The notes under the pieces are model-generated. The model was not told where the DNA came from and did not search any database. It was given only the letters and a program-made list of their open reading frames with translations. 64,000 nucleotides of DNA from Mesorhizobium sp. B2-3-12 (GTDB taxonomy: Bacteria > Pseudomonadota > Alphaproteobacteria > Rhizobiales > Rhizobiaceae), in contig NZ_VFVR01000005.1 in NCBI RefSeq assembly GCF_006442205.1, positions 248,001-312,000 of the forward strand, written 5' to 3'. Positions 40,099 through 59,350 of this stretch are shown piece after piece. Position numbers and translations under genes: made by a program. Position 1 is the stretch's first letter. Each line of letters opens with the position of its first letter.

Positions 40099-40158
40099 TT
40101 TTGGCCTCCTTCCGTTGCCGCCCGGCCCGTATTCGCCCGGCATTGGCGGCGCGTACAT

Positions 40159-43306: not shown

Positions 43307-43395
43307 GGTCTCTGTTCCCTCTTGTCTGACATGATCAAGGCTCGTCTCGGCCCTTAATATACCTACTAGACGAAAACATATGCATCTGCAATTAT

Positions 43396-43409
43396 CTTTA
43401 AGCATAAAG
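43396..43409. promoter_or_regulatory. Putative MarR-type operator, site 1
   Basis: CTTTAAGCATAAAG, inverted arms CTTTA/TAAAG, 17 bp ahead of the GTG at 43426 and within the 119-bp divergent region shared with the cyclase gene. Weakest of the four but clearly the same pattern. Confidence 0.5.
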
Positions 43410-43425
43410 GAAATGGGAACGGGGC

Positions 43426-45000
43426 GTGAGCGAGTTCGACGCCATCTTTGTCGGGGCGGGCCACAACAGTCTGGCATGCGCCGCGCATTTGGCGCTCAAA
43501 GGCTGGAAAACCGGCGTTTTCGAGCGCAACGCAACAATTGGCGGCGCGGTGCAAACCCGCGAATTCACCCTTCCCGGCTTCCGTCACGACTTCGGCGCGA
43601 TGAATCTGAGCCTGTTTGCCGGCTCCGCCTTTCACCGGAAATATGCAAATGAATTGAAAGCGCAGGGACTGGAGTTCGCACCGGTCGCCGATTGTTTCGC
43701 CAGCGCCTTTCCGGATGGGCGCTGGTTCGGCGTCAGCAACGATCTGGAGAAGACCGCCAGCCGCATGGCCGCCTTTTCAACGGCCGACGCCGCGACATGG
43801 CGCAGGCTGGTTGCCGCCTTTCCCGTGGAGGCCGAGCACCTGTTCCGACTGCTGGGATCGCCGATGAGCGCCCGCGCGCTTGCAAGCACAGCCTGGAACT
43901 TGTGGCGCAAGAAGGGCATCGCCGGCGCACTCGATACCGGGCGCCTGCTGTTGTCGTCGCCGCGCGCATGGCTTGAGGAGAACTTCGAGTCGCCGCATGT
44001 TCGGGCAACGCTCGCCACCTGGGGCATGCATCTCGACTTTGCGCCCGACATCGCCGGCGGCGCGGTGTTCCCCTATCTGGAATCGATGGCCAATCAGAGC
44101 TTTGGCATGGTGCTGGGCAAGGGTGGCGCCAACACGATCATCAAGGCGCTGGCCGGCATGGTGACATCGGCCGGCGGCAAGATCGTCACCGGCGCCGACG
44201 TCGCCGAGATCACGGTCTCCAGCGGCAAGGCGACGGGCGTGCGGCTCGCATCCGGCGAAACGCATAGCGCCACCAGGGCGGTCATCGCCGGCGTCGCGCC
44301 CAAGGCGCTGACCGGCAAGCTGCTGCCAAACGGTTCCGGTGACGCCGGCTTCGACACGGCGATGGGGAAATTCCGGTATGCACCGGGCACGATGATGATC
44401 CATCTGGCGCTCGACGGTTTGCCTGACTGGCGCGCCGGGGCAGAGCTGCGTCAGTTCGCCTATGTCCATCTGGCGCCATCGCTCGACCAGATGTCGCGCA
44501 CCTATCAGCAGGCGATGGCAGGCCTGCTGCCGGACGAGCCGGTTCTGGTCGTCGGCCAGCCGACCGCGGTCGATCCGTCGCGGGCGCCCGAGGGCAAGCA
44601 TGTACTGTGGGTGCAGGTGCGCATGCTGCCCGCCGAAATCCTGGGCGACGCCGCGGGCAAGATCGCCCCGGCACATTGGGATCAGGTCAAGGAGGCCTAT
44701 GCCGAGCGCGTGCTCGACATCATCGAAACCTACGCGCCCGGCCTGCGTGCGAAAATCCCCGGTCGCGCGGTGTTTTCGCCGATCGACCTGGAGCACGAGA
44801 ACCCGAACCTGGTCGGTGGCGACCAGATCTGCGGCAGCCATCATCTGGCGCAGAATTTCCTGTTCCGCCCGGCGCGCGGCCATGCCGGCTGGAACACGCC
44901 GGTCCTCAACCTGCATCTGACGGGCGCCGCGACATGGCCCGGCGCCGGCACGGGTGCGGCCTCCGGCTTCATGCTCGCGCAACAGCTTGGCGGGAGGTAG
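43426..45000 (+). CDS. FAD-dependent oxidoreductase, phytoene desaturase/CrtI-like, second copy
   Basis: 524 residues; the dinucleotide motif is FDAIFVGAGHNSLACAAHLA and the FAD-closing end is HLTGAATWPGAGTGAASGFM. It is a paralogue of the 40641-42212 protein. The start is GTG, immediately at the family motif. It is followed 109 bp later by the binding-protein gene of a peptide-type importer. Substrate unknown. Confidence 0.88.
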   Translation: MSEFDAIFVGAGHNSLACAAHLALKGWKTGVFERNATIGGAVQTREFTLPGFRHDFGAMNLSLFAGSAFHRKYANELKAQGLEFAPVADCFASAFPDGRWFGVSNDLEKTASRMAAFSTADAATWRRLVAAFPVEAEHLFRLLGSPMSARALASTAWNLWRKKGIAGALDTGRLLLSSPRAWLEENFESPHVRATLATWGMHLDFAPDIAGGAVFPYLESMANQSFGMVLGKGGANTIIKALAGMVTSAGGKIVTGADVAEITVSSGKATGVRLASGETHSATRAVIAGVAPKALTGKLLPNGSGDAGFDTAMGKFRYAPGTMMIHLALDGLPDWRAGAELRQFAYVHLAPSLDQMSRTYQQAMAGLLPDEPVLVVGQPTAVDPSRAPEGKHVLWVQVRMLPAEILGDAAGKIAPAHWDQVKEAYAERVLDIIETYAPGLRAKIPGRAVFSPIDLEHENPNLVGGDQICGSHHLAQNFLFRPARGHAGWNTPVLNLHLTGAATWPGAGTGAASGFMLAQQLGGR

Positions 45001-45109
45001 GCCCGACGACTTCACAGAGGCGACGAGAGGCAAGCGCTGCTGCCCACGAAGCCTGAATCAATGACCTGACATTGCTGCGCAAAGACAACAAACAACAAGG
45101 GGAACGACC

Positions 45110-46639
45110 ATGACAATCAACAGACGCGAATTGCTGGGATACAGTGCCGCGGCACTTGGCGTGGCGGCCGTCGGCCTGCCAAAGATCGCCAACGCCGCAG
45201 CCGGCGAGCTGACCATCGCCTACAACGTCAACCTGCCGTCCTGGGATCCGACCACCGGACCGTCGGCCGTCAACCCGACCATCCAGGGCCTCTACCAATC
45301 GGTGTTCGACCAATTCATACCGCAGAAGCCGGACCTGTCCTTCGCGCCGGGCCTGCTCACCGAATGGGGCTGGAACGACGACCACACCAAGGTGATGATG
45401 ACGGTGCGCGAAGGCGTGAAATGGCATGACGGCTCGCCCTTCACACCGGAAGACGTCGTCTGGTCGCTGCAGCGCGCGGGCGACGAAAAGACCGGCAACC
45501 CGATCCAGTTCGTCTGGAAGAACGTCAACAATTTCAAGATCGACGGCAACAAGATCACTGGCGACGTGGTGCAGTTCGACCCGGTCTATTTCAAGTGGAT
45601 GTCGTTCCTGACTGGCTACATCCTGCCCAAGGCCTATTACGAGAAGGTCGGCGCGGAGGGCTTCGAAAAGGCGCCGATCGGCACCGGTCCCTACATGGTG
45701 GAAAAATTCGAGCGCAACGCCTTCCTGCGGCTGAAGGCCAACCCGGACTATTGGGGCGGCAAGCCGGCCTTCGACAATGTGACGATCAAGTTCGTCACCG
45801 ACGCCGCAAGCCGCGTCGCCGAGATCGAATCCGGCTCCTCGCAGGTGACGCTCGAAATTCCCTATGAGGAATACGATCGACTGATCGCCAAGGACGGACT
45901 TGCCGGCTCGATCAAGAACGTGTCCGACATCGGCATGATCTTCTTCAACAACAAGGACGCCATGCTGGACAAGAATGTCCGCCAGGCGGCCGTGATGTCC
46001 GTCGACAAGGAGCTACTGGTCAAGCGGCTGCTGCGCGGCTACGGCCAGCCGATCGATACGCTGGAAACGCCGGAATATGCCGCCTACGACCCGTCGATCA
46101 AGGTCGAGCACAATCCGGAAAAGGCCAAGGAATTGCTCAAGGCCTCCGGTTATTCGCCTGAAAAACCGGCCAAGATCACCATCCAGACGACCAAGGGCTT
46201 CAAGCCCAAGGACTATGAGATGGTGCAGGCGATCGTCGGCATGTGGCGCAAGGTCGGCATCGAGGCAACCATCGAAGTCTATGAGATCGCCAAGCACTAT
46301 GAGCTGCGCGCCGCGCACAAGCTGGCGCCGGCGGCCTTCTACAACTGGGGCAACGCCATCGGCGATCCGACGACGTCGACCGGTTTCGCCATGTTCGGCC
46401 CGTCGCCGCACTCGTCGTGGAAGACCGACGACCTCGATGCCAAGATCGGTCCGCTGTGGGGCGAAAAGGACGAGGCCAAGCGCATCGCCGGCTGGAAGGC
46501 GGTCGACAAATACATCGCCGAGCAGGCTTATGTGCTGCCGGTGGTGCAGTTCGCGCAGCCGATCGTGCATGCCAAGGGCGTCAAAGTCGTGCAGCATATT
46601 TCCGGTGCGCTGCTGCCGGCCTTGATGACGCCGGCCTGA
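45110..46639 (+). CDS. Dpp/Opp-type ABC transporter substrate-binding protein
   Basis: 509 residues with a twin-arginine-like leader (NRRELLGYSAAALGVAA) and an SBP_bac_5 body with VREGVKWHDGSPFTPEDVVW and the IGTGPYMVEKFERNAFLRLK segment. It is the first gene of a five-gene importer (binding protein, two permeases, two ATPases). AGGGGAACGACC lies ahead of the ATG. Family members carry peptides, nickel or other small amphipathic compounds; the ligand is unknown, though the context suggests an aromatic metabolite or conjugate. Confidence 0.92.
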   Translation: MTINRRELLGYSAAALGVAAVGLPKIANAAAGELTIAYNVNLPSWDPTTGPSAVNPTIQGLYQSVFDQFIPQKPDLSFAPGLLTEWGWNDDHTKVMMTVREGVKWHDGSPFTPEDVVWSLQRAGDEKTGNPIQFVWKNVNNFKIDGNKITGDVVQFDPVYFKWMSFLTGYILPKAYYEKVGAEGFEKAPIGTGPYMVEKFERNAFLRLKANPDYWGGKPAFDNVTIKFVTDAASRVAEIESGSSQVTLEIPYEEYDRLIAKDGLAGSIKNVSDIGMIFFNNKDAMLDKNVRQAAVMSVDKELLVKRLLRGYGQPIDTLETPEYAAYDPSIKVEHNPEKAKELLKASGYSPEKPAKITIQTTKGFKPKDYEMVQAIVGMWRKVGIEATIEVYEIAKHYELRAAHKLAPAAFYNWGNAIGDPTTSTGFAMFGPSPHSSWKTDDLDAKIGPLWGEKDEAKRIAGWKAVDKYIAEQAYVLPVVQFAQPIVHAKGVKVVQHISGALLPALMTPA

Positions 46640-46657
46640 TATAGGCCTGGAATTGGC

Positions 46658-46683
46658 GCGCGCCGTCGCCAATGACGGCGCGC
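46658..46683 (+). terminator. Hairpin between binding-protein and permease genes
   Basis: A perfect 10-bp stem, GCGCGCCGTC with GACGGCGCGC, and a GCCAAT loop, 18 bp after the stop, without a T run. Such hairpins commonly stabilise the binding-protein mRNA and reduce, not stop, read-through to the permease genes. Confidence 0.65.
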
Positions 46684-46727
46684 ATTTCCATCGGCATACG
46701 AGCCCACGGGCTCCTGCAAAGATTTAG

Positions 46728-47735
46728 ATGCTCCTGCAACGATTCCTGATTCGTCTGCTGACGATGCTGATCACGCTGTTCGGCGTGGCCGTCGTCGTCT
46801 TTGTCGTGATCCGCATCGCGCCCGGCGATCCGATCGCCATGATGCTGCCGCCGGGCGCGACGGATGCCGATATCGGCCGGCTGCGCGCGCTCTACGGGCT
46901 CGACAAGACCATCGTCGAGCAGTTCTTCATATGGCTGTCCGGCGTCGTCAGGGGCGATTTCGGCACCTCGATTTCGCTGCGGCAAGACGTGCTTGGCCTG
47001 GTCTTCAACCGGCTGCCGGCAACGCTGGAGCTCGCCATCGTAGCGCTCCTCATGGCGGTGGCGATCGGCGGCACGACGGCGATCCTTGGCGCCCGCGAGC
47101 GCGGTACGGCGGTCGAAGCCGGCATCGATATCGCCAGCGGCGCCGCCCTTTCCATCCCCGACTTCCTCTGGGGCCTGGTGCTGATCCTGCTGTTCGGCGT
47201 GCTTGTGCCGATCTTCGACATTTCGGGCCGGGTGTCGCCGCAACTCGACCTGCCCTTCGTCACCCAGTTCTACTTCTTCGAGAGCTTGCTGCGGCTGCGC
47301 TTCGACCTGACCTGGGACCTCCTGAAACACATGCTCATGCCGGCCGTCGCATTGGCGCTGCCGCTGGCGGCGATCATCGCGCAGCTTCTCAAACAGTCGC
47401 TGAAGGAAGTGCTCGACCTCGACTATGTCGTGCTGGCGCGGGTCAAGGGGTTTTCGGAAACGCAGGTCATCCTGCGCGAGGCGCTGAAGAACGCCGCGCT
47501 GCCGACACTGACCCTGATCGGCGTGCAGTTCACTTTCCTCATCGGCGGCACCGTCATCGTCGAGCGGCTGTTCTCCTATGAGGGGCTCGGCAACATGGCG
47601 ATCGACGCCGTCATCAACCGCGACCTGCCGTTGATCCAGGGCATCGTGCTGGTCTTCGCGCTGCTGTTCGTGCTGATCAACCTCGTCGTCGACATGATGT
47701 ATGCGCTGCTCAATCCGAGGCTGCGCCATGGATGA
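46728..47735 (+). CDS. Dpp/Opp-type ABC transporter permease, DppB-like
   Basis: 335 residues with an N-terminal helix (FLIRLLTMLITLFGVAVVVF), the DppB motif IRIAPGDPIAMMLPPGATDA, about six membrane segments, and an EAA loop VKGFSETQVILREALKNAAL. The last bases overlap the next permease start. Confidence 0.94.
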   Translation: MLLQRFLIRLLTMLITLFGVAVVVFVVIRIAPGDPIAMMLPPGATDADIGRLRALYGLDKTIVEQFFIWLSGVVRGDFGTSISLRQDVLGLVFNRLPATLELAIVALLMAVAIGGTTAILGARERGTAVEAGIDIASGAALSIPDFLWGLVLILLFGVLVPIFDISGRVSPQLDLPFVTQFYFFESLLRLRFDLTWDLLKHMLMPAVALALPLAAIIAQLLKQSLKEVLDLDYVVLARVKGFSETQVILREALKNAALPTLTLIGVQFTFLIGGTVIVERLFSYEGLGNMAIDAVINRDLPLIQGIVLVFALLFVLINLVVDMMYALLNPRLRHG

Positions 47736-48576
47736 GGCACGCATCATCAGGCGCCGATTGAGCCCGAGACTGTGGCTGGCCGGCGGCTGGCTGCTGCTGG
47801 CACTGCTGGCCGCGATCTTCGCGCCGCTGGTCGCGCCGCAGGATCCGCTGGCGCAGGATCTGATGCTGGAGCGCCTGCCGCCGTTCTGGCTCGATGGCGC
47901 CGAGCCGGGCTATTGGCTTGGCACCGACAGTCTCGGTCGCGATCTCTTGTCCCGGCTGATCTTCGGCGGCCGCATCGCCTTCATCGTCGCCTTTGCAGCG
48001 GCCATCGCGGCGTGCGTCGTCGGTTCGACGCTGGGACTGATCGCGGGCTATTTCGGCGGCTGGGCCGATCGCATCATCTCGCGCATCGTCGACATCTGGA
48101 TGGCGTTTCCGCCGGTGCTGTTCGCCATCCTCCTGGTCGCCGTGCTCGGAACGGGCCTGAGCTCGGTCATCCTCGCCATCGCGATCATCGACTGGACGCG
48201 CTTCTGCCGCGTGATCCGCGCCGAGGCGATGGGGCAGTCACGCATGGACTATGTCGAGAATGCGCGCATCGCCGGCTACGGCCGCATCGGCATCATGCTG
48301 CGCGAAGTGCTGCCCAACGTGGTGCCGTCGATCGTGGCGCTGCTGTCGCTGGAAATGGGCATCGCCGTCATCGTCGAGGCGATCCTATCCTTCGTCAATC
48401 TGTCGATCTCGACCGACGATCCGACCTGGGGCGGCATCATCGCCGAGGGCCGGCTGTCGATCCATCAGGCCTGGTGGGTGCTGGTGTTCCCGCTGATCAC
48501 GCTGATCCTGACCGTGCTGTCGTTCAGCCAGTTCGGCGAGGCGCTGAAGACGCGTTTCGATCCGGTGCTGCGATGA
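47728..48576 (+). CDS. Dpp/Opp-type ABC transporter permease, DppC-like
   Basis: 282 residues. DppC features are YWLGTDSLGRDLLSRLIFGG and the EAA loop ENARIAGYGRIGIMLREVLP. The ATG at 47728 overlaps the previous gene by 8 bp. The stop overlaps the next start (ATGA). Confidence 0.94.
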   Translation: MDEARIIRRRLSPRLWLAGGWLLLALLAAIFAPLVAPQDPLAQDLMLERLPPFWLDGAEPGYWLGTDSLGRDLLSRLIFGGRIAFIVAFAAAIAACVVGSTLGLIAGYFGGWADRIISRIVDIWMAFPPVLFAILLVAVLGTGLSSVILAIAIIDWTRFCRVIRAEAMGQSRMDYVENARIAGYGRIGIMLREVLPNVVPSIVALLSLEMGIAVIVEAILSFVNLSISTDDPTWGGIIAEGRLSIHQAWWVLVFPLITLILTVLSFSQFGEALKTRFDPVLR

Positions 48577-49451
48577 GCGCCTGTCTCGACATCGCCAATC
48601 TGAGCGCCGTGCTGGCCAACGGCCAGCGCGTGCTGCGCTCTGTCTCGCTCACTGTGCAACCCGGCGAAGTGCACGCGCTGGTCGGCGAGAGCGGCGCCGG
48701 CAAGACGATGATCGGCAAGGCGGTGCTTGGCGTTTTGCCGTCGAGCGTACGGATCGTCGAAGGCGATATGAGGCTCGAGGGCGAAGACCTCGGCAAACTC
48801 CCGCCAAAAGCGCGGCGCACGCTGATCGGCGCGCGCACCGCGCTGATCCCGCAGGACCCGCTGACAGCGCTCAACCCGTCGCGCCGCATCGGCCCGCAGA
48901 TGACCGACCGGCTGGTGCGCATCCTGGGCTGGAGTGGCGACAAGGCGGACAAGCGCGTCCGGCAATTGCTGGACGAAGTGCAGATCCGCGATCCCGACCG
49001 CGTGCTGAAGAGCTATCCGCACGAACTGTCCGGCGGCATGCGCCAGCGCGTGCTGATTGCCGCAGCCTTCGCCGCCGAGCCACGGCTGATCGTTGCCGAC
49101 GAGCCAACCACGGCGCTCGACGTCACCGTGCAGAAGCAGATCCTTCGGCTGATCGCCGCGTTGCAGCGCGAGCACGGCACCGCGATCCTGTTCGTCACCC
49201 ATGATCTCGGCGTCGTCGCCAAGATCAGCCAGAAAGTGTCGGTGCTCTATGCCGGCAAGGTGGTGGAAGAGGCCGAGACCGCTGACCTCTTTGCCGCACC
49301 TCGGCATCCCTACACGCGCTCGCTGATGGCCGCGACGCCGCGCTACACCGCCCCCTTCGCGTCGCTGAAACCCGTGGACGAGACGGTGCTGGCCGGACTT
49401 GCGGCCGAGATCGCGGCGGCCGACCAGGCATGGAGGCGCCCGCATGGCTGA
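48573..49451 (+). CDS. Dpp/Opp-type ABC transporter ATPase, DppD-like
   Basis: 292 residues. Walker [10 protein letters not shown]-loop [15 protein letters not shown], signature LSGGMRQRV (Gln to Met at the fifth position, common in this subfamily), Walker B LIVADEP, and the C-terminal oligopeptide motif [14 protein letters not shown]. It overlaps both neighbours. Confidence 0.94.
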
Positions 49452-50274
49452 GCCGCTGTTTTCCGTGCGCGGGCTGAAGGTCGCGCTGCCCGACATGACG
49501 CGCAAGCCGCTGATCGGGCGCGCGCCGCTGGCCGAAATCCTGAAAGGCCTGGACTTCGACCTGCCCAAGGGCTCGGTGACCGGAATCGTTGGCGAATCCG
49601 GGTCGGGCAAATCGACGCTTGGCCGTGCGCTGGTGCGGCTGCTGGAGCCGAGCGCCGGCGAGATTCGTTTCGAAGGCCGTGACATCACCCACCTGCCGGA
49701 GGCCGGGTTGCGGCCTCTGCGCCGCGACCTGCAGATGATTTTTCAGGATCCGATGTCGTCGCTCAACCCGCGCCGCACCATCGCCAGCATCATCGCCGCG
49801 CCGCTGAAGCAGAATGGACTTGGCGACAATCTGAAAGCGCGCGTCGCCGAGGCACTGCAACGCGTCGGCCTGCCGCAGAGCTTCGCCAGCCGCTACCGCC
49901 ACCAACTGTCGGGCGGCCAGCGCCAGCGCGTCGGCATTGCACGCGCCCTGGCGCTGTCGCCGAAATTCGTGCTGGCCGACGAGATCGTCTCCGGGCTCGA
50001 CGTCTCGACGCAGGCGCAGATCCTCACCTTGCTGGAGAAGCTCGCGGCGGAGATGGGCCTGACGATCGCCTTCATCAGCCACGATCTGTCGGTCATCCGG
50101 CGGCTTTGCCAACAGGTGATCGTCATGCGCGAGGGCAGCATCGTCGAAGCGAGCGACACCGATGCGCTGTTCGACAATCCCAGGGAGACTTACACGCGAG
50201 ACCTGCTTGCCGCCATTCCGCTTCCCGAGATCGACGCGGACTGGCTGCGGCCGCCCGAGAAGGCGCCGGCCTAA
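49444..50274 (+). CDS. Dpp/Opp-type ABC transporter ATPase, DppF-like
   Basis: 276 residues. Walker [10 protein letters not shown]-loop IFQDPMSSLNPRRTI, signature LSGGQRQRV and Walker B FVLADE; the C-terminus has NPRETYTRDLLAAIP. It completes the importer started at 45110. A VOC protein follows 77 bp later. Confidence 0.94.
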   Translation: MAEPLFSVRGLKVALPDMTRKPLIGRAPLAEILKGLDFDLPKGSVTGIVGESGSGKSTLGRALVRLLEPSAGEIRFEGRDITHLPEAGLRPLRRDLQMIFQDPMSSLNPRRTIASIIAAPLKQNGLGDNLKARVAEALQRVGLPQSFASRYRHQLSGGQRQRVGIARALALSPKFVLADEIVSGLDVSTQAQILTLLEKLAAEMGLTIAFISHDLSVIRRLCQQVIVMREGSIVEASDTDALFDNPRETYTRDLLAAIPLPEIDADWLRPPEKAPA

Positions 50275-50351
50275 GACTGTTCATCCCGCACGCCGAAGAG
50301 CGGGCCTCGGACGTGCATGGGGGCGAAATCAGCCCGCGAACGGAGGGTAAC

Positions 50352-50951
50352 ATGAACTACGCAACCCGCGGCACGATGATTGCCGCGATCCTGTTGGGCT
50401 CGATGGGAGCGGCCTCGGCGGATTCGATCCCTGGCATGCGCGGCCACGACCATACCGGCATCACGGTCCCCGACATGAAGCAGGCGGTCGATTTCTTCAC
50501 CGAAGTGGTCGGCTGCAAGAAGGCGATGTCGTTCGGCCCGTTCGCCGACGACAAGGGCACTTTCATGCAGGACCTGCTCGGCGTCGATCCGAAGGCTGTC
50601 ATAGAGCAGGTCACCATGGTGCGCTGCGGCTATGGATCGAACATCGAGCTGTTCAAATACACCGCGCCCGACCAGAAGGATCTGACACCGAAGAACAGCG
50701 ACATTGGCGGCTTCCATATCGCCCTTTACGTCGATGACGTCGCCGCCGCCAAAGCCTATCTCGATGGCAAGGGCGTCAAGACGAGATTGGGGCCGCTGCC
50801 GGTCAAGGAAGGGCCCGCCGCCGGCCAGACCATCCTTTATTTCCAGGCGCCGTGGGGATTGCAGCTGGAAGCGATCAGCTATCCCTCTGGCATGGCCTAT
50901 GAGAAGGGTGCCGAAACGGTGCTGTGGAGCCCGAAGAACCCGGAGAAATGA
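50352..50951 (+). CDS. Exported VOC-superfamily (glyoxalase-like) protein
   Basis: 199 residues: a signal peptide (about 1-23, ending ASADS) and two VOC repeats. Metal positions are visible as His in RGHDHTGIT, Glu in SNIELFKY, His in GGFHIALYV and Glu in GLQLEAISY, so a metal site is plausible. Glyoxalase-fold proteins usually act in the cytosol, so a periplasmic one in a transport operon is unusual. Possible role: binding or ring-cleaving the imported compound. GGAGGG precedes the ATG. Confidence 0.8.
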   Translation: MNYATRGTMIAAILLGSMGAASADSIPGMRGHDHTGITVPDMKQAVDFFTEVVGCKKAMSFGPFADDKGTFMQDLLGVDPKAVIEQVTMVRCGYGSNIELFKYTAPDQKDLTPKNSDIGGFHIALYVDDVAAAKAYLDGKGVKTRLGPLPVKEGPAAGQTILYFQAPWGLQLEAISYPSGMAYEKGAETVLWSPKNPEK

Positions 50952-50957
50952 TCTCCC

Positions 50958-50994
50958 GTGGCGCGCTTGCAGGGATGTCACGCAAGCGCGCCAC
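50958..50994 (+). terminator. Long hairpin after the VOC gene
   Basis: A perfect 13-bp stem, GTGGCGCGCTTGC with GCAAGCGCGCCAC, and an 11-nt loop, starting 6 bp after the stop. No T run. Probably closes the dpp-VOC operon. Confidence 0.65.
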
Positions 50995-51025
50995 GCAATC
51001 CCCGCCTAATCATTTCGACATAAAA

Positions 51026-51039
51026 CTTTAAGCTTGAAA
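51026..51039. promoter_or_regulatory. Putative MarR-type operator, site 2
   Basis: CTTTAAGCTTGAAA, a near-perfect palindrome 55 bp ahead of the 51095 start. It controls the fused monooxygenase/SDR/marR/hydratase operon if functional. Confidence 0.65.
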
Positions 51040-51094
51040 TATCATACCTCCGGCGCGATACTGAGGCATAGCAAGCGAAGAGGAGATCGCACGG

Positions 51095-53389
51095 ATGAGG
51101 GTTGCGGTTCTCGGCGGCGGACCAGCCGGCCTCTACTTTGCCATTTCGATGAAACTGAGGGACGCCGCGCACGACGTGACGGTGTTCGAGCGCAATCGCG
51201 CCGACGACACGTTCGGCTGGGGCGTGGTGCTGTCGGCCGAGACGCTCGATAATCTCGCTGAGAATGATCCGGTCAGCGCCGTCTGGATCAAGAAGCATTT
51301 CGCCTATTGGGACGACATCGCCGTCATCCATGACGGCGTGCGGACGGTCTCATCGGGCCACGGTTTCTGCGGCATTGGCCGCAAGCGGCTGCTGGTCCTC
51401 TTGCAGCGGCGCGCGCGCGAACTTGGCGTCAAACTGATGTTCGAAACCGACATCGCCGACCCAAAACCCTATATGGAGACGCATGACCTCGTCGTCGCCG
51501 CCGATGGGCTGAACTCCAGGGCGCGCAACAGCTTCGTCGACATCTTCAAGCCCGACATCGACACGCGCAAATGCAAGTTCGTCTGGCTCGGCACCAACCA
51601 GAAATTCGACGATGCCTTCACCTTCATATTCGAGAAGACCGAGCATGGCTGGGTGTGGGCGCACGCCTACCAGTTCGACAGCGAGACCGCGACCTTCATC
51701 GTCGAATGCAGCGAACAGACCTGGACCGCCTTCGGCTTCGGCGCGATGTCGCAGCAGGAGTCCATCGCGGTGTGCGAGCGCATCTTCGCCAAACATCTTG
51801 GCGGCCATGCGCTGATGACCAATGCCAACCACATCAGGGGCTCGGCCTGGATCAATTTCCCGCGCGTGCTGTGCGAGCGCTGGTCCTACAAGAATCTGGC
51901 GCTGATGGGCGACGCGGCGGCCTCGGCGCATTTCTCGATCGGTTCCGGCACCAAGCTCGCCTTGGAAAGCGCGGTGGCGCTGGCCGAATATGTCGAAACC
52001 GAACCGGACCTCGAGGCCGCGTTCCGCAAATATGAGGATGCGCGCCGCACCGAGGTGCTGAAGCTGCAATCGGCGGCACGCAATTCGCTGGAATGGTTCG
52101 AGGAGGTCGAGCGCTATCTCGGCCTGGATCCGGTGCAGTTCAACTATTCGCTCTTGACCCGTTCGCAACGCATCAGCCACGAGAATTTGCGGCTGCGCGA
52201 TGCCGAATGGCTTGAAAGCGCGGAAGAGTGGTTTCAGCGCCAGGCCGGTGCCGGCGGCAACAGGCTGCGCCGGGCGCCGATGTTCGCGCCCTTCAAGCTG
52301 CGCGACCTCAGGCTCAACAACCGCGTCGTCGTCTCGCCGATGGCGCAGTACAAGGCCGTCGACGGGTGCCCGACCGACTGGCATTTCACCCACTATGCCG
52401 AGCGCGCCAAGGGCGGCGCGGGCCTCGTCTATATCGAGATGACCTGCGTCAGCCCGGAAGGGCGGATCACGCCGGGCTGCCCCGGCTTCTACGCGCCCGA
52501 GCATGAGGTGGCGTGGAAGCGGCTGGTCGATTTCGTCCATACCGAAACCGAGGCCAGGATCTGCGCCCAGATCGGCCATTCCGGCGCCAAGGGTTCGACC
52601 CGTGTCGGCTGGGAAGGCACCGACGTGCCGCTCGCCTCGGGCAACTGGCCTGTCATGGCGGCATCGGCCGTCGCGTGGTCGCCGCAGAATCAGGTGCCGA
52701 AGGCGATGGACCGCGCCGACATGGATTTGGTGCGCGACCAGTTCGTGGCCTCCGCCGAAATGGCTCATCGCTGCGGCTTCGACATGCTGGAGATCCATGC
52801 CGCGCACGGCTATCTCCTGTCGTCCTTCATCACGCCGGTAACCAACCGGCGCACGGACGCCTATGGCGGTTCGCTGGAAAATCGCATGCGCTATCCCCTC
52901 GAAATCTTCCATGCGGTGCGCGCCGCCTGGCCGGCGGGAAAACCGATCTCGGTGCGCATTTCGGCCAATGACTGGGTCGGCATCGAAGGCGTCACGCCCG
53001 CCGATGCCGTCGAGATCGCAAAGCTGCTGCATGAGGCCGGCGTCGATATCTGCGACGTCTCGGCCGGCCAAACGTCGGTTGCCGCCAAGCCGGTCTACGG
53101 CCGCATGTTCCAGACGCCGTTTTCCGACCGCATCCGCAACGAGGTCGGCATGGCGACGATGGCTGTCGGCAACATCTACGAGCCCGACCATGTCAATTCG
53201 ATCCTGATGGCCGGCCGCGCCGATCTGGTCGCGCTGGCGCGGCCGCATCTCGCCGATCCCTACTGGACGCTGCATGCGGCGGTGACACTCGGCGACCGAG
53301 GCGTCAAATGGCCGGATCCCTATTTGCCCGGACGCGACCAAATCTACCGGCTAGCCGAGCGCGATGCGGCGGCGGGGCTGAAAGTATGA
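51095..53389 (+). CDS. Bifunctional FAD monooxygenase/OYE reductase (salicylyl-CoA 5-hydroxylase or 2-aminobenzoyl-CoA monooxygenase type)
   Basis: 764 residues in two enzyme domains. Residues 1-385 form an aromatic-ring FAD monooxygenase ([16 protein letters not shown]; the second FAD motif is [20 protein letters not shown]). From residue 396 ([20 protein letters not shown]) begins an Old-Yellow-Enzyme-type flavin reductase with [27 protein letters not shown] and [13 protein letters not shown]. This fusion is known for 2-aminobenzoyl-CoA monooxygenase/reductase and is annotated elsewhere as salicylyl-CoA 5-hydroxylase. It hydroxylates and reduces an aryl-CoA. It heads an operon; the stop overlaps the SDR start. 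Confidence 0.92.
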
Positions 53390-54159
53390 CGGTGGCAGCG
53401 ACGATCCCCGGCAAGCACGCGCTGGTCACCGGCGGTGGATCCGGCGTCGGCCGGGCCATCGCGCTGACACTGGCCGAGGCTGGTGTCGATGTGACCATAT
53501 GTGGGCGTCGCGAAGCTGAACTCGCCAAGGTGGCGGGCGAGAACGCTCGCATCCATGGCATTGCCGCCGACGTCACCAATGAGGCGGCGATGGCCGGGCT
53601 CTACATCCAGGCGGAGGCCGCGCGCGGACCGTTCGACATCGTCGTCGCCAATGCCGGCATGGCCGGCAGCACGCCTGCGCACAAGACTACGCTTGCCGAC
53701 TGGCAGCGGACGCTCGACGTCAATTTGACCGGAGCCTTCCTGACGGTGAAGCCGGCGCTGGCCGGCATGGCCGCGCGGAAATCGGGGCGGATCGTCTTCA
53801 TCGCCTCGACCGCCGGTCTGAAAGGCTACGCCTATGTCGCGCCCTACGTGGCGGCCAAGCATGGCGTCATCGGGTTGATGCGGGCGCTGGCCGCCGAGAC
53901 GGCGAAATCCGGGGTCACCGTCAATGCGGTGTGTCCGGGCTTCGTCGAGACCGACATGTTGGAGGAATCCATCCAGCGCATCGTCGAAAAGACCGGACGC
54001 TCCGCAGAACAGGCAAGAGCGAGCCTTGCCTCGACCAACCCGCAGGGCCGTTTCATCCAGCCGCTGGAAATTGCCGAAGCCGTGCTTTGGCTGTGCGGCG
54101 ACGCGGCGCAATCGATCACCGGACAGGCGATTTCGATCTCGGGAGGTGAAACATGGTAG
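53386..54159 (+). CDS. Short-chain dehydrogenase/reductase
   Basis: 257 residues. Cofactor motif [15 protein letters not shown], then NAGMAG; the catalytic set is Ser in IASTAGL, Tyr and Lys in YVAAKHG. The C-terminus [19 protein letters not shown] is typical of FabG-like members. Probably oxidises a 3-hydroxyacyl-CoA or alicyclic CoA formed by the upstream enzyme. The ATG overlaps the previous stop, and its last 7 bases overlap marR. Confidence 0.93.
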
Positions 54160-54623
54160 CCGGCCCCCTGCCCATGCCATCGGGGCCCGGCAAGGACCGG
54201 CTGCGCCTGTGGATCAGGCTGCTGCGCGCCTCACGCACGATCGAGGCCGAACTGCGCGAGCGCCTGAAGAAGGAATTCGACACGACGCTGCCGCGCTTCG
54301 ACGTGATGGCGGCACTTTACCGGGCGCCGGAGGGCATGCTGATGAGCGACCTGTCGCGCTTCCTGCTGGTCTCCAACGGCAATGTCACCGGCATCGTCGA
54401 CCGGCTGGTTTCGGAAGGACTGGTGGCGCGCGCACGCCGCAACGGCGACCGCCGCACCTCGATGGTTAGGTTGACCGAGGAGGGCACGAAGTCCTTTGCC
54501 ACCATCGCCGCCGCGCATGAGGGCTGGATCGGTGAATTGCTGGGCAAGGTCAGCGAGGAGGATGCCCGCCGGCTGACCGGCATGCTGACCTCGTTCCGCA
54601 GCAATTGGGAGGGACGCGAATGA
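54153..54623 (+). CDS. MarR-family transcriptional regulator (aryl-CoA operon)
   Basis: 156 residues. [23 protein letters not shown] and [20 protein letters not shown], with wing [17 protein letters not shown]. It lies inside the operon it likely controls. The operator site 55 bp ahead of the operon is a good candidate target; the homologue at 40159 is the other possibility. Confidence 0.92.
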
Positions 54624-55432
54624 CTGCAATGGCCGGCCTCAAGCCGAAGCATTTCCTGTGGGAGGTCGAGGGTAGGATTGCCAAGGTCCGGCTTGACCGG
54701 CCGGAGCGCAAGAACCCGCTGACCTTCGACAGCTATGCCGAGCTGCGCGACACATTCCGCGACCTCGTCTATGCCGACGACGTCGACGCCGTGGTGTTCC
54801 TGTCCAATGGCGGCAATTTCTGCTCGGGCGGCGACGTCCACGACATCATCGGCCCGCTGGTCAAGATGGACATGAAGCAGCTCCTGGCCTTCACCCGCAT
54901 GACCGGCGATTTCGTCAAGGCGATGCTGAATTGCGGCAAGCCGATCATCGCCGCGGTCGATGGGGTGGCGGTCGGCGCTGGCGCCATCATCGCCATGAGT
55001 TCCGACATCCGCATCGCCACGCCGGAGGCCAAGACCGCCTTCCTGTTCACCCGCGTCGGTCTTGCCGGCTGCGACATGGGCGCCTGCGCGATCCTGCCGC
55101 GCATCATCGGCCAGGGCCGCGCCGCCGAACTGCTCTACACCGGCCGAACCATGACGGCGACGGAAGGCGAGCGCTGGGGCTTCTACAACAGGCTGGTCGA
55201 CGCCGCGGCGCTCGAGGCCGACGCGCTCGACATGGCGGCCCGCATCGTCTCCGGCCCGACCTTCGCACACGGCATCACCAAGACGCAGATCAACCAGGAA
55301 TGGTCGATGGGCCTCGACCAGGCTATCGAGGCGGAAGCGCAGGCGCAGGCGATCTGCATGCAGACGCGGGATTTCGAACGGGCGTATCGGGCATTCGTGG
55401 CCAAGGAAAAGCCGGTGTTCGAGGGGAATTGA
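54620..55432 (+). CDS. Enoyl-CoA hydratase/isomerase family protein
   Basis: 270 residues. The oxyanion-hole segments are [13 protein letters not shown] and [20 protein letters not shown]. Fits a hydration or ring-opening hydrolysis step in aryl-CoA breakdown. The ATG overlaps the marR stop (ATGA). Repeat copy D follows 33 bp later. Confidence 0.92.
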
Positions 55433-55465
55433 GATGAGCGCTTCTTTGGAGACGCTGGCGGGACA

Positions 55466-55625
55466 GCGCCCCCCTCTGTCCTGCCGGACATCTCCCCCTC
55501 TAGGGGGGAGATCGGCTGTCATCGCCGCTTTCGCCAATCGCCAGCACCGCAGGACGGGGTCCGGCGCGCAAGCTGCCAATCTCCCCCCTAGAGGGGGAGA
55601 TGTCCGGCAGGACAGAGGGGGGCGC
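55466..55625. repeat. Paired-palindrome intergenic element, copy D
   Basis: Inner arms CTCCCCCTCTAGGGGGGAGA and its near-exact complement about 80 bp away, with outer arms GCCCCCCTCTGTCCTGCCGG type. Same size, arms and interior TCATCGC..CTTTCGCCA as copy C. It lies between the hydratase and acyl-CoA dehydrogenase genes, within the operon. Confidence 0.9.
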
Positions 55626-55662
55626 CGTAGAGTGCAGACCTCGCAGAATTGCGGAGGTATCC

Positions 55663-56811
55663 ATGCCTGACCGCTCTTTCCTCAACTGGCCGTTCTTCGA
55701 AGACCGCCATCGCGAGCTCGCAGAACACCTCGACACCTGGTGCGCGAAAAACCTGCCCGTCGATCATCACGACGTCGATGCCGCGTGCCGCGAGCTGGTG
55801 GCCATGCTTGGCCGGGACGGCTGGCTGAAGCCGACGGCGCTCGACACCGGCAATCCGCGACCACTCGATGTGCGCACGCTCTGCATCACCCGCGAGACGC
55901 TGGCGCGCCATGATGGGCTCGCCGACTTCGCTTTTGCCATGCAGGGGCTCGGCACCGGCGCGCTCAGCCTGTTCGGCACGCCGGACCAGCAGCAATGGCT
56001 GGCAAAGACCCGCGCCGGCAAGGCGATCTCCGCCTTTGCCCTGTCGGAGCCGCGCTCCGGGTCTGACGTTGCCAATACCGAGATGACGGCGACCCGCGAT
56101 GGCGACAGCTATGTTTTGTCCGGCGAAAAAACCTGGATTTCGAATGGTGGCATCGCCGATTTCTATGTCGTCTTTGCCCGCACCGGCGAAGCGCCGGGCG
56201 CCAAGGGCCTCTCGGCCTTCATCGTGCCGGGCGATGCCAAGGGCCTCGGCATTGCCGAGCGACTGGAAGTGATCGCGCCGCACCCGCTGGCCAGGCTATC
56301 CTTCGACCAGGTCCGGCTGCCGGCCTCGGCACTGATCGGCAGGCCGGGCGATGGGTTCCGCATCGCCATGTCGGTGCTCGACGTGTTCCGCTCGACCGTC
56401 GGCGCAGCGGCTCTCGGCTTTGCCCGCCGGGCGCTCGATGAAAGCATCAACAGAGTCGCCGAGCGCAAACTGTTCGGCGCGCCGATGGCCGAATTGCAGA
56501 TGGTGCAGGGCCACATCGCCGACATGGCGCTCGACGTCGATGCGGCGGCGCTGCTGGTCTACCGCGCCGCCTGGACCAAGGACATGGGCGCCGCGCGGGT
56601 GACGCGCGAGGCGGCGATGGCCAAGCTGTTCGCCACCGACAAGGCGCAGGAGGTGATCGACAACGCGGTGCAACTGCATGGCGGCGACGGCGTCCGCAAG
56701 GGCCACATCATCGAGAGCCTGTATCGCGAGATCCGCGCGCTGCGCATTTATGAGGGCGCTTCGGACGTGCAGAAGGTGGTGATCGCGCGGCAAGTGATGG
56801 GCGCGGCCTGA
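55663..56811 (+). CDS. Acyl-CoA dehydrogenase family protein
   Basis: 382 residues. Landmarks: [20 protein letters not shown] (FAD/substrate loop), KTWISNGG, and the C-terminal [11 protein letters not shown] then [10 protein letters not shown], whose Glu is the usual catalytic base. Probably forms a double bond in an acyl-CoA intermediate. GCGGAGG precedes the ATG. A downstream RidA gene follows 70 bp later. Confidence 0.92.
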
Positions 56812-56881
56812 ACAGGTCGCGACCACGGAATTTTTCGACACGGATATTGCGGACCCGATATTGGACAGGCGGAGAGACGAC

Positions 56882-57277
56882 ATGCACGAGATCCTGCAGC
56901 CGGAAGGCTGGGCAAAACCGGTCGGCTACGCCAATGGCGTGGCGGCGCGCGGCAGGCTCGTCTTCGTCGGCGGACAGGTCGGCTGGAACGGGCAATGCCA
57001 GTTCGAGACTGACGACTTCGCCGGCCAGGTGCGCCAGACGCTCCAGAACATCGTCGCGGTGCTGGCCGAGGCCGGCGCGGAACCACGGCACATCACCTCG
57101 ATGACCTGGTATTTTACCGACAAGACCGAATATCTCGGCAACCTCAAGGGGATCGGCGAAGCTTATCGCGACGTGATCGGCAGGCATTTTCCAGCAATGG
57201 CCGCCATGCAGGTGATGGCGCTGGTCGAGGATCGCGCCAAGGTGGAGATCCAGGCGACTGCCGTTATTCCGGAATAA
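56882..57277 (+). CDS. RidA/YjgF family protein
   Basis: 131 residues. The family core is ARGRLVFVGGQVGWNGQCQF with the C-terminal AMQVMALVEDRAKVEIQATA. The usual Arg in the C-terminal substrate motif is represented by the Arg in EDRAKVEI. RidA proteins hydrolyse reactive imines or enamines, or, as RutC, related intermediates. GCGGAGAG precedes the ATG. It is convergent with a RutA-like gene. Confidence 0.9.
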   Translation: MHEILQPEGWAKPVGYANGVAARGRLVFVGGQVGWNGQCQFETDDFAGQVRQTLQNIVAVLAEAGAEPRHITSMTWYFTDKTEYLGNLKGIGEAYRDVIGRHFPAMAAMQVMALVEDRAKVEIQATAVIPE

Positions 57278-57301
57278 AGAATTCGCTTTCCCCGGAATAT
57301 C

Positions 57302-58393
57302 TTATTCGCGAAGCCCGGCCTGCCTCAGCAGCGGCAGCACGTGATCGCAGAAATAGGGTAGCTCCTGCGTGTAGTTGACGAAGGACAGGGCGATGCCCTG
57401 ATAGCCGTGCTTTGATATGGCGGCCATGTCGGCGGCAATCGTTTGCGGCGTCCCAATCAGCGGATAGGTGCCGGCGCCGCCGGCGAAACGCTGGCGGTAG
57501 GCGTCATAGGCATGCGGGTCGTGCGACTGCGAGAATTCCTTTTTTCCCGCCATATGCGCATCGACCGCCTCGTGATCGGCAAGATCGACGGCATATCTTT
57601 TATAATATGCCTGCGCCTCTTCCATGGTCGGGCGGCAGACGACATGCGCCACGGTGTAGACGCCGACCTCCCGGCCAACCTTGTCGGCCCGCTCGCTGAT
57701 GTCGGCGACATGCTTGCCGGCATCGCTCATCTCGGAAAAAGTCGTGAACAGATAATCGCATCTGGCGGCGGCGAAATCGCGGCCCGGGCCGCCGAAAGCG
57801 GCGTTCATGGTCACCGGGCGCGGAAGCTGCAGGCTGGCCGGCCGGCTGACCGCCTCCTTGAGGTGATAATAGGTGCCGTCATAGTCAAGCGGCTCCGCCG
57901 ACGCGTAGAGCTTCTCGAGGATCTCGATCCATTCGGCTGCTTGGTCGTAACCCTTCTCGACCAGCGGCGTGCCGAACATGCCGAATTCCTTCGGGTTCCA
58001 GCCGCAGACGATGTTCAACCCGGCACGGCCCTGGCTGATGTGGTCGACGGTCGCCAGCGCCTTGGCGGCATAGAGCGGATGCACAAGCGGCACGTGCACG
58101 GTCATGAACAGACCGATGCGGTCGGTGGCCACGCTGAGCGCCGCCGCCCAGGTGAAGGTCTCGAAAGACATTTCCCTGACCTTGTTGCGGCCGCCAAAGC
58201 CACGCCAGCGTGCGATCGGCAACATGAACTCCAGCCCGGCCCGGTCGGCGATCTGGGCGGCCGTCAGATTGTCCTGCCAGCTTGCCGTCCAGCGTTCAGG
58301 CACATCCGATATGGCAAGGCCGCCATCGGCGTTGGTCGAGAAGACGCCAAGCTTGAGTTTGTTGGTGCCTTGCAACGGATGTGCTTTGTTCAT
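57302..58393 (-). CDS. LLM-class flavin-dependent monooxygenase, RutA/SsuD-like
   Basis: 363 residues of the luciferase-like family. RutA-like features are FMLPIARWRGFGGRNKVR and AALSVATDRIGLFMTVHVPL, NIVCGWNPKEFGMFG and the end VNYTQELPYFCDHVLPLL. Such enzymes hydroxylate or cleave rings using FMNH2. The Met at 58393 has GGGAGG ahead; the longer upstream frame is antisense to the aldolase. Neighbouring RidA protein recalls RutA-RutC. Substrate unknown. Confidence 0.88.
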   Translation of the reverse strand: MNKAHPLQGTNKLKLGVFSTNADGGLAISDVPERWTASWQDNLTAAQIADRAGLEFMLPIARWRGFGGRNKVREMSFETFTWAAALSVATDRIGLFMTVHVPLVHPLYAAKALATVDHISQGRAGLNIVCGWNPKEFGMFGTPLVEKGYDQAAEWIEILEKLYASAEPLDYDGTYYHLKEAVSRPASLQLPRPVTMNAAFGGPGRDFAAARCDYLFTTFSEMSDAGKHVADISERADKVGREVGVYTVAHVVCRPTMEEAQAYYKRYAVDLADHEAVDAHMAGKKEFSQSHDPHAYDAYRQRFAGGAGTYPLIGTPQTIAADMAAISKHGYQGIALSFVNYTQELPYFCDHVLPLLRQAGLRE

Positions 58394-58440
58394 GTCGCGA
58401 CCTCCCGGCGAAGATCGCACGCTACGGCTCCGCGAAAATA

Positions 58441-58454
58441 TTTCAAGCATGAAA
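58441..58454. promoter_or_regulatory. Putative MarR-type operator, site 3
   Basis: TTTCAAGCATGAAA, with perfect 5-bp arms, centred between the divergent RutA-like and aldolase genes (120 bp apart). It can control both. Confidence 0.65.
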
Positions 58455-58513
58455 CAGCTTCGCCTCGCACTGGTTTGCCGATATGAATTTGGCGGGATGA
58501 GAAAGGGATTGGC

Positions 58514-59290
58514 ATGAGCGAGTTTCGCCAGAAGTGTATCGGCAAGGCCAAGCTCGTCGGCTCCTTCGCCGCCATCCCGCATCCCGTCGCGGTCGAGGTG
58601 ATGGCGCTGTCCGGTCTCGACTTCCTCTGCATCGACTGGGAGCATGCCCAGATCTCGCGCGACATGATCGAGGCCATGGTGCGGGCGGCCGATGTCCACC
58701 GCGTGCCGGCGATGGTGCGCGTTCCCGGCCATGCGCCCGAAGCCATCCACGCGGCGCTGGACAGCGGCGCGCAGGGCGTGCTGGTGCCACGCGTCTCGAC
58801 CGCGGCCCAAGCTGAGATGGCGGTGACGGCTTCGCGCTATCCGCCGCTGGGCGAGCGCGGCGTCGGACCCGGCCGCGCGGCCGGCTATGGCTATCGCATT
58901 CCGCAATATCTGGCCGGCGCCAATGACAGGATCGTCGTCGCTGTCCAGGTCGAGACCGCCGAGGGGTTGGCCAACATCGAGGCGATCGCCGATGTCGACG
59001 GCGTCGACGTGATCTTCGTCGGGCCCGGCGATCTCTCCGTATCGATCAATGCGATCGGACCGAAGGGCGCAGACAAGCTCACGGATGCGATCAGCAGGAT
59101 CATTGGCGTGACGATCGCGCACGGCAAGACCTCCGGCATATTCTGCGCCAGCCCGCAGACCGTCGGCCAGTGGGCAGCCTTCGGCGCCAGCTTTTTCGTC
59201 CTGGCCAGCGACACGATGTTTCTCGGCGCGGGCGCCGCGGCCAATTATGGCGCCGCCCACGCCGAACTGGAGCAGGAAGGCCCCCGCTAG
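58514..59290 (+). CDS. HpcH/HpaI-type aldolase
   Basis: 258 residues. The metal site is Glu in AVQVETAEGL and Asp in IFVGPGDLSV; the catalytic His-Arg region is FLCIDWEHAQIS with VPRVSTAAQ. These enzymes cleave 4-hydroxy-2-oxo acids to pyruvate plus an aldehyde, typically the last step of aromatic catabolism. Monocistronic by layout, divergent from the RutA-like gene. Confidence 0.92.
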   Translation: MSEFRQKCIGKAKLVGSFAAIPHPVAVEVMALSGLDFLCIDWEHAQISRDMIEAMVRAADVHRVPAMVRVPGHAPEAIHAALDSGAQGVLVPRVSTAAQAEMAVTASRYPPLGERGVGPGRAAGYGYRIPQYLAGANDRIVVAVQVETAEGLANIEAIADVDGVDVIFVGPGDLSVSINAIGPKGADKLTDAISRIIGVTIAHGKTSGIFCASPQTVGQWAAFGASFFVLASDTMFLGAGAAANYGAAHAELEQEGPR

Positions 59291-59320
59291 CGCCCGGTCG
59301 AGCGGGCAGCCGAGAAACTT

Positions 59321-59350
59321 TTTTAAGCTTAAAACTTTTACCTTGAAAAG
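59321..59350. promoter_or_regulatory. Putative MarR-type operators, tandem sites 4a and 4b
   Basis: TTTTAAGCTTAAAA (59321-59334) is a perfect palindrome; TTTTACCTTGAAAA (59336-59349) is a degenerate second copy, 15 bp on. They follow the aldolase gene and precede the amino acid transporter by 361 bp. The tandem arrangement suggests cooperative binding. Confidence 0.55.

Follow-up and report, generated by a model that had tools for sequence, protein, structure and literature searches.

The window analyzed here, 64,000 nucleotides of Mesorhizobium sp. B2-3-12 on contig C31, encodes two MarR-family regulators, both of which are above the cut-off of PF12802/PF01047. MarR1 (40159..40641, minus strand), a relative of B. 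japonicum IadR (7kym), stands in a minus-strand run with an isatin-hydrolase-like cyclase (42515..43306; match to 4j0n, isatin hydrolase B, E of 9e-126), the flavin amine-oxidase-like FAD1 (40641..42212) and, downstream of MarR1, the indolepyruvate oxidoreductase-like subunits iorA/iorB (36369..40158). A second flavin amine-oxidase-like gene, FAD2 (43426..45000, plus strand), diverges from the cyclase gene. MarR2 (54153..54623, plus strand; Pfam MarR) lies within the SalCoA operon. The operon is headed by SalCoA (51095..53389, plus strand), a fused salicylyl-CoA 5-hydroxylase/oxidoreductase of the 2-aminobenzoyl-CoA monooxygenase/reductase type (NCBIfam NF006101, 1268.7 bits, cut-off 1078). 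It continues on the same strand with an SDR dehydrogenase (53389..54159), MarR2, an enoyl-CoA hydratase family protein (54605..55432; PRK08258, 480.5 bits, cut-off 330) and probably an acyl-CoA dehydrogenase (55600..56811) and a RidA-like protein (Endoribonuclease L-PSP; 56861..57277). Further on are a luciferase-like flavin monooxygenase (57302..58390, minus strand), which is SfnG/RutA-like and under both cut-offs, an HpcH/HpaI aldolase (58514..59290, plus strand) and an amino-acid ABC importer binding protein (59711..60508, plus strand).

The initial annotation had noticed a 14-bp palindrome, here called motif A, at 43396-43409, 51026-51039, 58441-58454 and 59321-59334, and all of these coordinates were correct. 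Site 1 (43394..43411, core CTTTAAGCATAAAG) lies in the divergent promoter of the cyclase and FAD2, site 2 (51024..51041, core CTTTAAGCTTGAAA) in the SalCoA operon promoter, site 3 (58439..58456, core TTTCAAGCATGAAA) in the divergent promoter of the RutA-like and aldolase genes, and site 4a (59319..59336, core TTTTAAGCTTAAAA) in the gap between the aldolase gene and the importer. The degenerate tandem copy placed at 59336 exists, but in register it starts one base to the left. This site 4b (59333..59350; core 59335-59348, CTTTTACCTTGAAA) has three mismatches, follows its neighbor by exactly 14 bp and is the true second site of the tandem, which also lies upstream of the importer gene.

A distance of 55-75 bp to the gene starts holds for sites 2 and 3, where 51039 is 55 bp ahead of the start at 51095 and 58454 is 59 bp ahead of 58514, and does not hold for several others. 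On the minus strand, 58441 is 50 bp ahead of the start at 58390; at site 1, just 16 bp separate 43409 from the GTG at 43426, and the minus-strand ATG at 43306 follows 43396 at a distance of 89 bp; and at site 4a, 59334 is 376 bp ahead of 59711. As had been stated, no copy with ≤3 mismatches precedes iorAB or the dpp genes in the window. Since iorAB is downstream of cyclase-FAD1-MarR1 on the same strand, the site at 43396 may reach it; in some other genomes, motif A sites are found ahead of dppA and iorA. A search for an RNA element in the importer leader was negative, as Rfam at gathering thresholds gave only tRNA and SRP RNA in the window.

Frequency and conservation of motif A

At ≤3 mismatches, the window holds 15 matches against 6.56 expected, a weak excess equaled in 2 of 100 shuffles. 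At ≤2 mismatches, the whole genome holds 33/28 matches against 30/29 for the reversed-pattern control, i.e., equal numbers. An 18-bp pattern drawn from the sites and allowed ≤1 mismatch, however, occurs only at the four window sites in the 6.2-Mb genome. A genome-wide excess is therefore confined to the best matches, and judged from the sequence the strength of motif A lies in these and in conservation, not in raw counts. With a matrix trained on SalCoA promoters, site 2 scored 27.9 bits, site 3 24.4, site 4a 19.5 and site 4b alone 5.7, while site 1, with 11.2 bits, fell below a background site at 12.0. Near the Rieske genes of the genome the best score was 11.8 bits (L304), below the control level.

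In 58 close loci, sites 1, 2, 3 and 4a were present in 54/54, 57/57, 27/27 and 27/27 orthologous promoters, respectively, the count for site 3 referring to loci with both genes mapped. The same loci gave 11 further matches, all at homologous positions, and the 1.19 Mb of reversed sequence gave none. The sites form conserved islands in alignments of five to six genomes: site 1 is invariant in 6/6, and CTTTYRCCTTGAAAAG of site 4b is kept in 5/5. The 14-bp step recurs in 14 of the 15 tandem SalCoA promoters.

Blind motif discovery on 43 SalCoA promoters returned TATTTYAAGCTTRAAATA. This set had been picked after a first site scan and excluded near-duplicates and L191, which has scant upstream DNA. 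At 14-bp width, the one width for which shuffles were made, this palindromic search reached a log-likelihood of 374 against 18.5, 20.5 and 25.3 for three shuffles that preserved base composition only. When each promoter was left out in turn, 42 of 43 exceeded 13.7, the highest score among the reversed controls, L217 barely so (13.8). The same threshold was passed by 110 of 113 promoters when all fetched SalCoA promoters were scored unselected, with some genomes counted twice. The three siteless promoters (L213, L214 and L219, the last two failing only in the unselected scoring) belong to SalCoA genes at about 83% identity; MarR2 was mapped in L213 and L214 despite the missing site, and L214 and L219 carry a motif A site farther away, near iorA. 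Of 30 promoters inspected in other classes and phyla-wide, five did not reach 13.7; a relative of MarR2 stands beside four of these.

The motif thus recurs at several promoters, conserved and beyond chance, as expected of a single regulon; the palindromes are real and very probably operators. The proposal that one regulator acts through one shared operator on scattered operons is strongly supported at the sequence level by the alignments, the promoter counts, the blind discovery and the fifth target described below.

A predicted fifth target on another contig

Motif A predicted a further target on contig C1, the promoter of an anthranilate-CoA-ligase-like gene (19.7 bits). The site was kept in all 30 promoters examined out of 47 ligase matches. 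The best solved relative of the C1 ligase is the anthranilate-CoA ligase 4wv3 (302 bits), and its score against TIGR02262 (benzoate/anthranilate-CoA ligase), 368.6 bits, is just below the cut-off of 375.25. It is 82.6-87.2% identical to the ligases in 22 named SalCoA loci. Among the genomes of the genus, the ligase was found in 47 of 71 with SalCoA and 0 of 10 without it; in the other 24 of the 71, no match was obtained at E ≤ 1e-100. A gene located by the motif would thus supply a missing step of the pathway. The divergent hydrolase at this site was considered as a kynurenine formamidase, a reading dropped because its NCBIfam name is hormone-sensitive-lipase-like. The other match outside the window at one mismatch, C12:950230, was discarded: it scored 5.8 bits and lies inside an ORF.

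A second motif accompanying MarR1

A different element, motif B (GATAATTGCAGATGCATA; 43379..43396, minus strand), abuts motif A site 1 and is a candidate operator of MarR1. It was found blind in 25/25 cyclase promoters, all above the highest control, and TAWTTGCANWTGCATA has its only exact match in the genome at this site. In most of these 25 promoters the best motif A score was low although motif B was present, and wherever motif A occurs near MarR1, motif B adjoins it. The isatin-hydrolase promoter of the window bears both. In L059 and L062, MarR1 is directly ahead of iorA. Its structure matches were 3cjn (137.4 bits), 7kym (81.5 bits) and 3cdh (47.4 bits). An iadDE-type oxygenase accompanying MarR1 was not found on C31; the five PF00848 matches of the genome are on C1, C12 and C34.

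Candidate binder of the palindrome

The initial annotation had pointed out two MarR genes in the region and suggested that one regulator probably controls the scattered operons. Of the two, MarR2 tracks the palindrome, and MarR1 tracks another, unrelated operator. Relatives of MarR2 occur in 99 of 297 genomes of the order, and for 40 of the 42 SalCoA promoters from other genomes (41 of 43 with our own) a MarR2 gene was located on the same piece of sequence. In the remaining two pieces, L129 and L131, no MarR2 was mapped; it was found on another contig of the genome of L129 and in a piece adjoining that of L131 (L065). Where MarR2 stands apart from the operon, a site above 13.7 precedes it in 3 of 11 loci and none does in 8, giving partial support to a possible autoregulation by stand-alone MarR2. 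The recognition-helix stretch reads VS(N/A)GNxTGxxxRL in our MarR2 and 18/18 relatives, and its counterpart EQSTxSRxLD in our MarR1 and 6/6 others. Judging from co-occurrence, MarR2 and not MarR1 is the likely binder.

Three other explanations were weighed. If MarR1 bound the palindrome, motif B would have to belong to the promoter itself or be bound by a third protein. Such a role would fit the place of MarR1 in the gene run behind site 1 and the location of a motif A site between MarR1 and iorA in L059 and L062. We nevertheless rejected it as improbable, because 13 genomes with the SalCoA site and MarR2 fall outside the 41 of 297 that have a MarR1 match at E ≤ 1e-20, and because the cyclase promoters that go with MarR1 have in common motif B, which adjoins motif A near MarR1, and mostly score low for motif A. 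That a regulator encoded outside the window, such as a further MarR or a protein of the GntR/LysR type, binds the palindrome and MarR2 is a passenger of the operon is unlikely, though less so than binding by MarR1. It would explain why the site is kept in L129 and L131 with MarR2 elsewhere and why several stand-alone MarR2 genes have no site of their own. In 40 of 42 loci from other genomes, however, MarR2 is the only regulator noted alongside the operon in an unsystematic look at neighboring regulators, and a perfect palindrome of 14-18 bp suits a MarR dimer; both speak against this explanation.

The palindromes might also be A+T-rich promoter elements or chance repeats rather than operators. 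Their chance frequency genome-wide at ≤2 mismatches agrees with this, as does the right half of site 2, TTGAAA, which is usable as a −35 element with the −10-like hexamer GATACT 17 bp on. Among 24 spacers, 17 gave the best mean match to TATAAT, but that signal is weak, with 7 of 42 promoters reaching 4/6, and the explanation was rejected. It is contradicted by the two-fold symmetry across 18 bp, the tandem 14-bp steps, the position-specific conservation with no stray matches, the remote target of matching function, and the blind motif together with the leave-one-out and all-promoter scoring; we regard it as extremely improbable.

Proposed control circuit

The motif A sites with their conservation, motif B, the target on C1 and the co-occurrence with MarR2 are read directly from the sequence. 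Binding, repression, ligand and two-input control we infer as follows. The full-form palindrome TATTTYAAGCTTRAAATA would be the operator of MarR2, and a MarR2 dimer bound there, covering or flanking the −35 element, would repress transcription. It would act on the operon that encodes it (SalCoA-SDR-MarR2-ECH-ACAD-RidA), on the isatin-hydrolase/FAD2 promoter and on the RutA-like/aldolase pair, and probably also on the amino-acid importer; its predicted target on the other contig is the anthranilate-CoA-ligase-like gene with the divergent hydrolase. The enzymes encoded would convert isatin or other indole-derived compounds to anthranilate, then to its CoA ester and on to central metabolism. The enzymes of the operon point to a CoA thioester as the releasing ligand of MarR2, presumably an early intermediate and most likely 2-aminobenzoyl-CoA. 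MarR1 would be a second repressor with the operator TTGCAnATGCATA at the isatin-hydrolase promoter only, which would place that promoter under both repressors. Taken as a whole, with MarR2 repressing five promoters through the palindrome, release by a CoA ester and MarR1 as second repressor, we consider this model, built from sequence comparison, quite probable. It looks like a solid, testable control circuit and not a new kind of system.

Comparison with known systems

In the Variovorax iad auxin locus, the MarR-family repressor IadR (MarR_73) controls a pathway via isatin to anthranilate and has a single DNA site of 24 bp, which precedes the iorA-type gene iadA (PMC9613470). MarR1 resembles it in matching B. 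japonicum IadR (7kym) and in preceding iorA in L059 and L062. It differs in that its top structure match, 3cjn, is not an IAA-binding IadR and in that the contig of the window lacks an iadDE-type oxygenase. Such loci have a second MarR, IadR2 (MarR_50, MarR_Bj2), which does not bind IAA; deleting it speeds the loss of IAA, RNA-seq in Variovorax ties MarR_50 mainly to gene 51, and the authors found neither a ligand nor a DNA site for it (PMC9613470), nor did the literature searched give one. MarR2 fills a matching role and may be an IadR2, the two being likened by role. A fuller reading, in which MarR2 belongs to the IadR2 class with TATTTYAAGCTTRAAATA as operator and a lower-pathway CoA ester as ligand and forms a two-key gate with MarR1, is tentative and somewhat doubtful. 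In this reading the operator, often a tandem at a 14-bp step, is the one that SalCoA promoters of several proteobacterial classes have in common, and the upper isatin-producing or -consuming genes would open only when the substrate from upstream coincides with the CoA intermediate from downstream. Such a gate would keep anthranilate from being released outside or staying unprocessed. Since the two MarRs are told apart by their putative operators, the role of the second, non-auxin-binding MarR in auxin-degradation loci, a question raised by the Variovorax study (PMC9613470), could be tested directly.

MarR2 is also comparable to the aryl-CoA-sensing CouR type, whose members repress a CoA-dependent aromatic operon and are released by the CoA thioester of the pathway (PMC4737184). 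Like them, MarR2 is a predicted MarR repressor within a CoA-dependent aromatic operon; the difference is that its putative operator recurs at five promoters, occurs in tandem 14-bp arrays and is accompanied by a second MarR. No account of the motif A operator was found by text and exact-core-string searches, which left subscription literature mostly uncovered, and the literature searched gave no published regulation of 2-aminobenzoyl-CoA clusters. According to work on Azoarcus, the clusters for anthranilate degradation via 2-aminobenzoyl-CoA reportedly comprise a CoA ligase, the fused monooxygenase/reductase, a dehydrogenase and a hydratase. The enzyme set here is the same, with the ligase split off to another contig. 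A repeat spotted by hand has become a defined putative operator: it has a consensus, MarR2 as candidate binder, a ligand class that can be predicted and five predicted targets, including one on a different contig to which nothing but the motif led. In many Pseudomonadota, the motif A matrix could serve for annotating CoA-dependent anthranilate regulons.

Conservation and specificity of the palindrome

The palindrome shared by several control regions (motif A) lies at 43396-43409, 51026-51039, 58441-58454 and 59321-59334, as the initial annotation had placed it; the degenerate neighbour that it also reported is present, but one base further left (59335-59348). It is near certain that these palindromes are operators of one regulon. 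Copies in the window are in modest excess (15, against 6.56 in shuffles). The initial annotation had made the regulon depend on a frequency above chance across the genome, and this holds only in part: with up to two mismatches the count equals that of the reversed control, but the best 18-bp matches stand apart. With an 18-bp pattern derived from the window sites themselves and at most one mismatch, the four sites are the sole matches in 6,203,973 bases.

Aligned across five or six genomes, the palindromes of all four regions form conserved islands amid diverged DNA. In the promoter of SalCoA (51095..53389, + strand), the fused aryl-CoA monooxygenase/oxidoreductase, the site is constant and the majority of flanking columns vary. 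The best protein relatives of SalCoA are found in Mesorhizobium, and the close set comprised the 58 of 80 named loci with a SalCoA identity of at least 86% (57 from Mesorhizobium and one Hyphomicrobiales MAG). A site with at most one mismatch was present in the gap between the isatin-hydrolase-like cyclase and the flavin amine-oxidase-like FAD2 (54/54), in the SalCoA promoter (57/57), between the RutA-like monooxygenase and the HpcH/HpaI aldolase (27/27), and between the aldolase and the amino-acid ABC importer (27/27). Beyond those promoters, 11 further matches occurred in 1,189,950 bases of close loci, compared with none in the same sequences reversed. Eight of them come from four loci with no mapped HpcH gene, where they correspond to the aldolase-flanking pair, two lie upstream of the importer in loci without mapped RutA or HpcH, and one is a SalCoA site left uncounted because it is too close to a contig end. 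In three loci (L152, L153 and L157), the aldolase-flanking palindromes are 93 bp apart, both sites being kept with the aldolase gene missing between them.

Because the 43 SalCoA promoters used for motif discovery were picked after a first look, every fetched SalCoA promoter (n = 113) was also scored. An expectation-maximization search of the 43, constrained only to be palindromic, yielded TTTYAAGCTTRAAA for a width of 14 bp (log-likelihood 374, against 18.5 to 25.3 in three shuffles) and TATTTYAAGCTTRAAATA for 18 bp. When each promoter was left out in turn, 42 of the 43 exceeded the highest reversed control (13.7 bits), L217 marginally (13.8); L213 fell below it. At the same threshold, 63 of 63 close and 47 of 50 distant promoters scored above, the exceptions being L213, L214 and L219. 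In a phylum-wide sample, SalCoA was found in 42 of 299 genomes, and 25 of the 30 loci returned scored at least 13.7, including 12 of 17 outside the order; 11 of these 17 exceeded the sample's own highest reversed control (17.2). Four of the five loci below 13.7 carry a relative of the regulator MarR2.

A second motif A site occurs in 15 of the 43 SalCoA promoters, at a step of 14 bp in 14 and 15 bp in one. The degenerate copy at 59335-59348 likewise stands at a 14-bp step from its neighbour, and its sequence, CTTTYRCCTTGAAAAG, is unchanged in five aligned genomes; it is therefore a real second half of a predicted composite operator.

In other genera (L060, L066, L117, L128 and L132), motif A is located upstream of dppA, aaSBP or HpcH, or between hydrolase and ligase genes; these sites extend the regulon to a peptide-type importer.

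A predicted remote ligase target

Two places outside the window lie within one mismatch of the motif. One of them, on contig C1, separates an acyl-CoA ligase gene from a divergently oriented alpha/beta hydrolase gene. Among solved structures, the best relative of this ligase is the anthranilate-CoA ligase 4wv3 (302 bits), and its score against the benzoate-CoA ligase model was slightly below the cut-off. Its identity is 82.6-87.2% with the ligases of 22 named SalCoA loci and 56.9-82.1% with those of 28 loci from the order. Many of these 28 have the ligase gene after the acyl-CoA dehydrogenase; the SalCoA operon of the window has no such ligase. Motif A was present in all 30 ligase promoters examined, out of 47 ligase-bearing genomes. 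Among 81 genomes of the genus, the ligase occurs in 47 of 71 with SalCoA and in none of 10 without it, counts that are inflated by shared ancestry. SalCoA without a ligase match at E ≤ 1e-100 was seen in G105 and 23 other genus genomes, and in L236 and L252 (genomes G351 and G209) a single in-frame TAG interrupts the ligase match.

Two regulators and two proposed operators

MarR1 (40159..40641, − strand) and MarR2 (54153..54623, + strand) both belong to palindrome-headed operons, so the window alone cannot tell which of them binds motif A. Across the order, 41 of 297 genomes carry a relative of MarR1 and 99 a relative of MarR2, and 13 genomes of the promoter set that are outside those 41 have both the site and MarR2. 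In operons that carry MarR2, the palindrome lies upstream of SalCoA or SDR; where MarR2 is separate from the operon, it has a site upstream in 3 of 11 loci. The putative recognition helix, placed as in MarR proteins generally, is near-constant in 18 MarR2 relatives and differs in the MarR1 proteins. Together, these patterns point to MarR2 as the likely binder of motif A.

In distant genomes, the isatin-hydrolase promoter frequently lacks motif A. Unsupervised motif discovery on 25 isatin-hydrolase promoters yielded sites of the type TTGCA-WW-TGCA (motif B), the 14-bp palindrome reaching 167.6 against 20.3 and 24.2 in shuffles, and motif B exceeded the highest control in all 25. MarR1 was mapped in 21 of 24 pieces from other genomes that carry this promoter, and was absent from the fetched pieces L193, L195 and L206. 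Motif B of the window (43379-43396) lies at a distance of 15 bp from the palindrome, and no further exact match occurs in the genome; in L059 and L062, motifs A and B are adjacent, 13 bp apart, between MarR1 and iorA. By the same reasoning that pairs MarR2 with motif A, MarR1 would pair with motif B as its candidate operator.

Proposed mechanism and pathway

In six aligned genomes, a 17-bp spacer separates the right half-site at SalCoA, TTGAAA, from a downstream GATACT or GATATT. This arrangement fits an operator overlying the −35 element, with repression through blocked polymerase; across 42 promoters, the −35/−10 arrangement has modest support. As in other members of its family, MarR2 may be a repressor that is released by a CoA ester. 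The ligand and a two-key logic are proposals. This kind of system is already known, and in the literature searched we found no description of the specific operator, of two MarRs divided over two operators, or of the tandem step.

The window's cyclase is isatin-hydrolase-like (4j0n, E = 9e-126), and the enzyme set includes the anthranilate-type ligase on C1 and SalCoA. According to PMC9613470, the Variovorax iad route reaches anthranilic acid by way of isatin and isatinic acid. No Rieske oxygenase of the iad route is encoded on the window contig.

At 59411-59480, within the 376-bp leader upstream of the importer gene, a G-rich block (GGGTGGGAGGGGTTTCAGTCCTTTGTCGTT...) is conserved in the aligned genomes; it matched no Rfam family at the gathering threshold. 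Rfam matches in the window were a tRNA (24285-24357, + strand) and a bacterial small SRP RNA (4156-4252, − strand).
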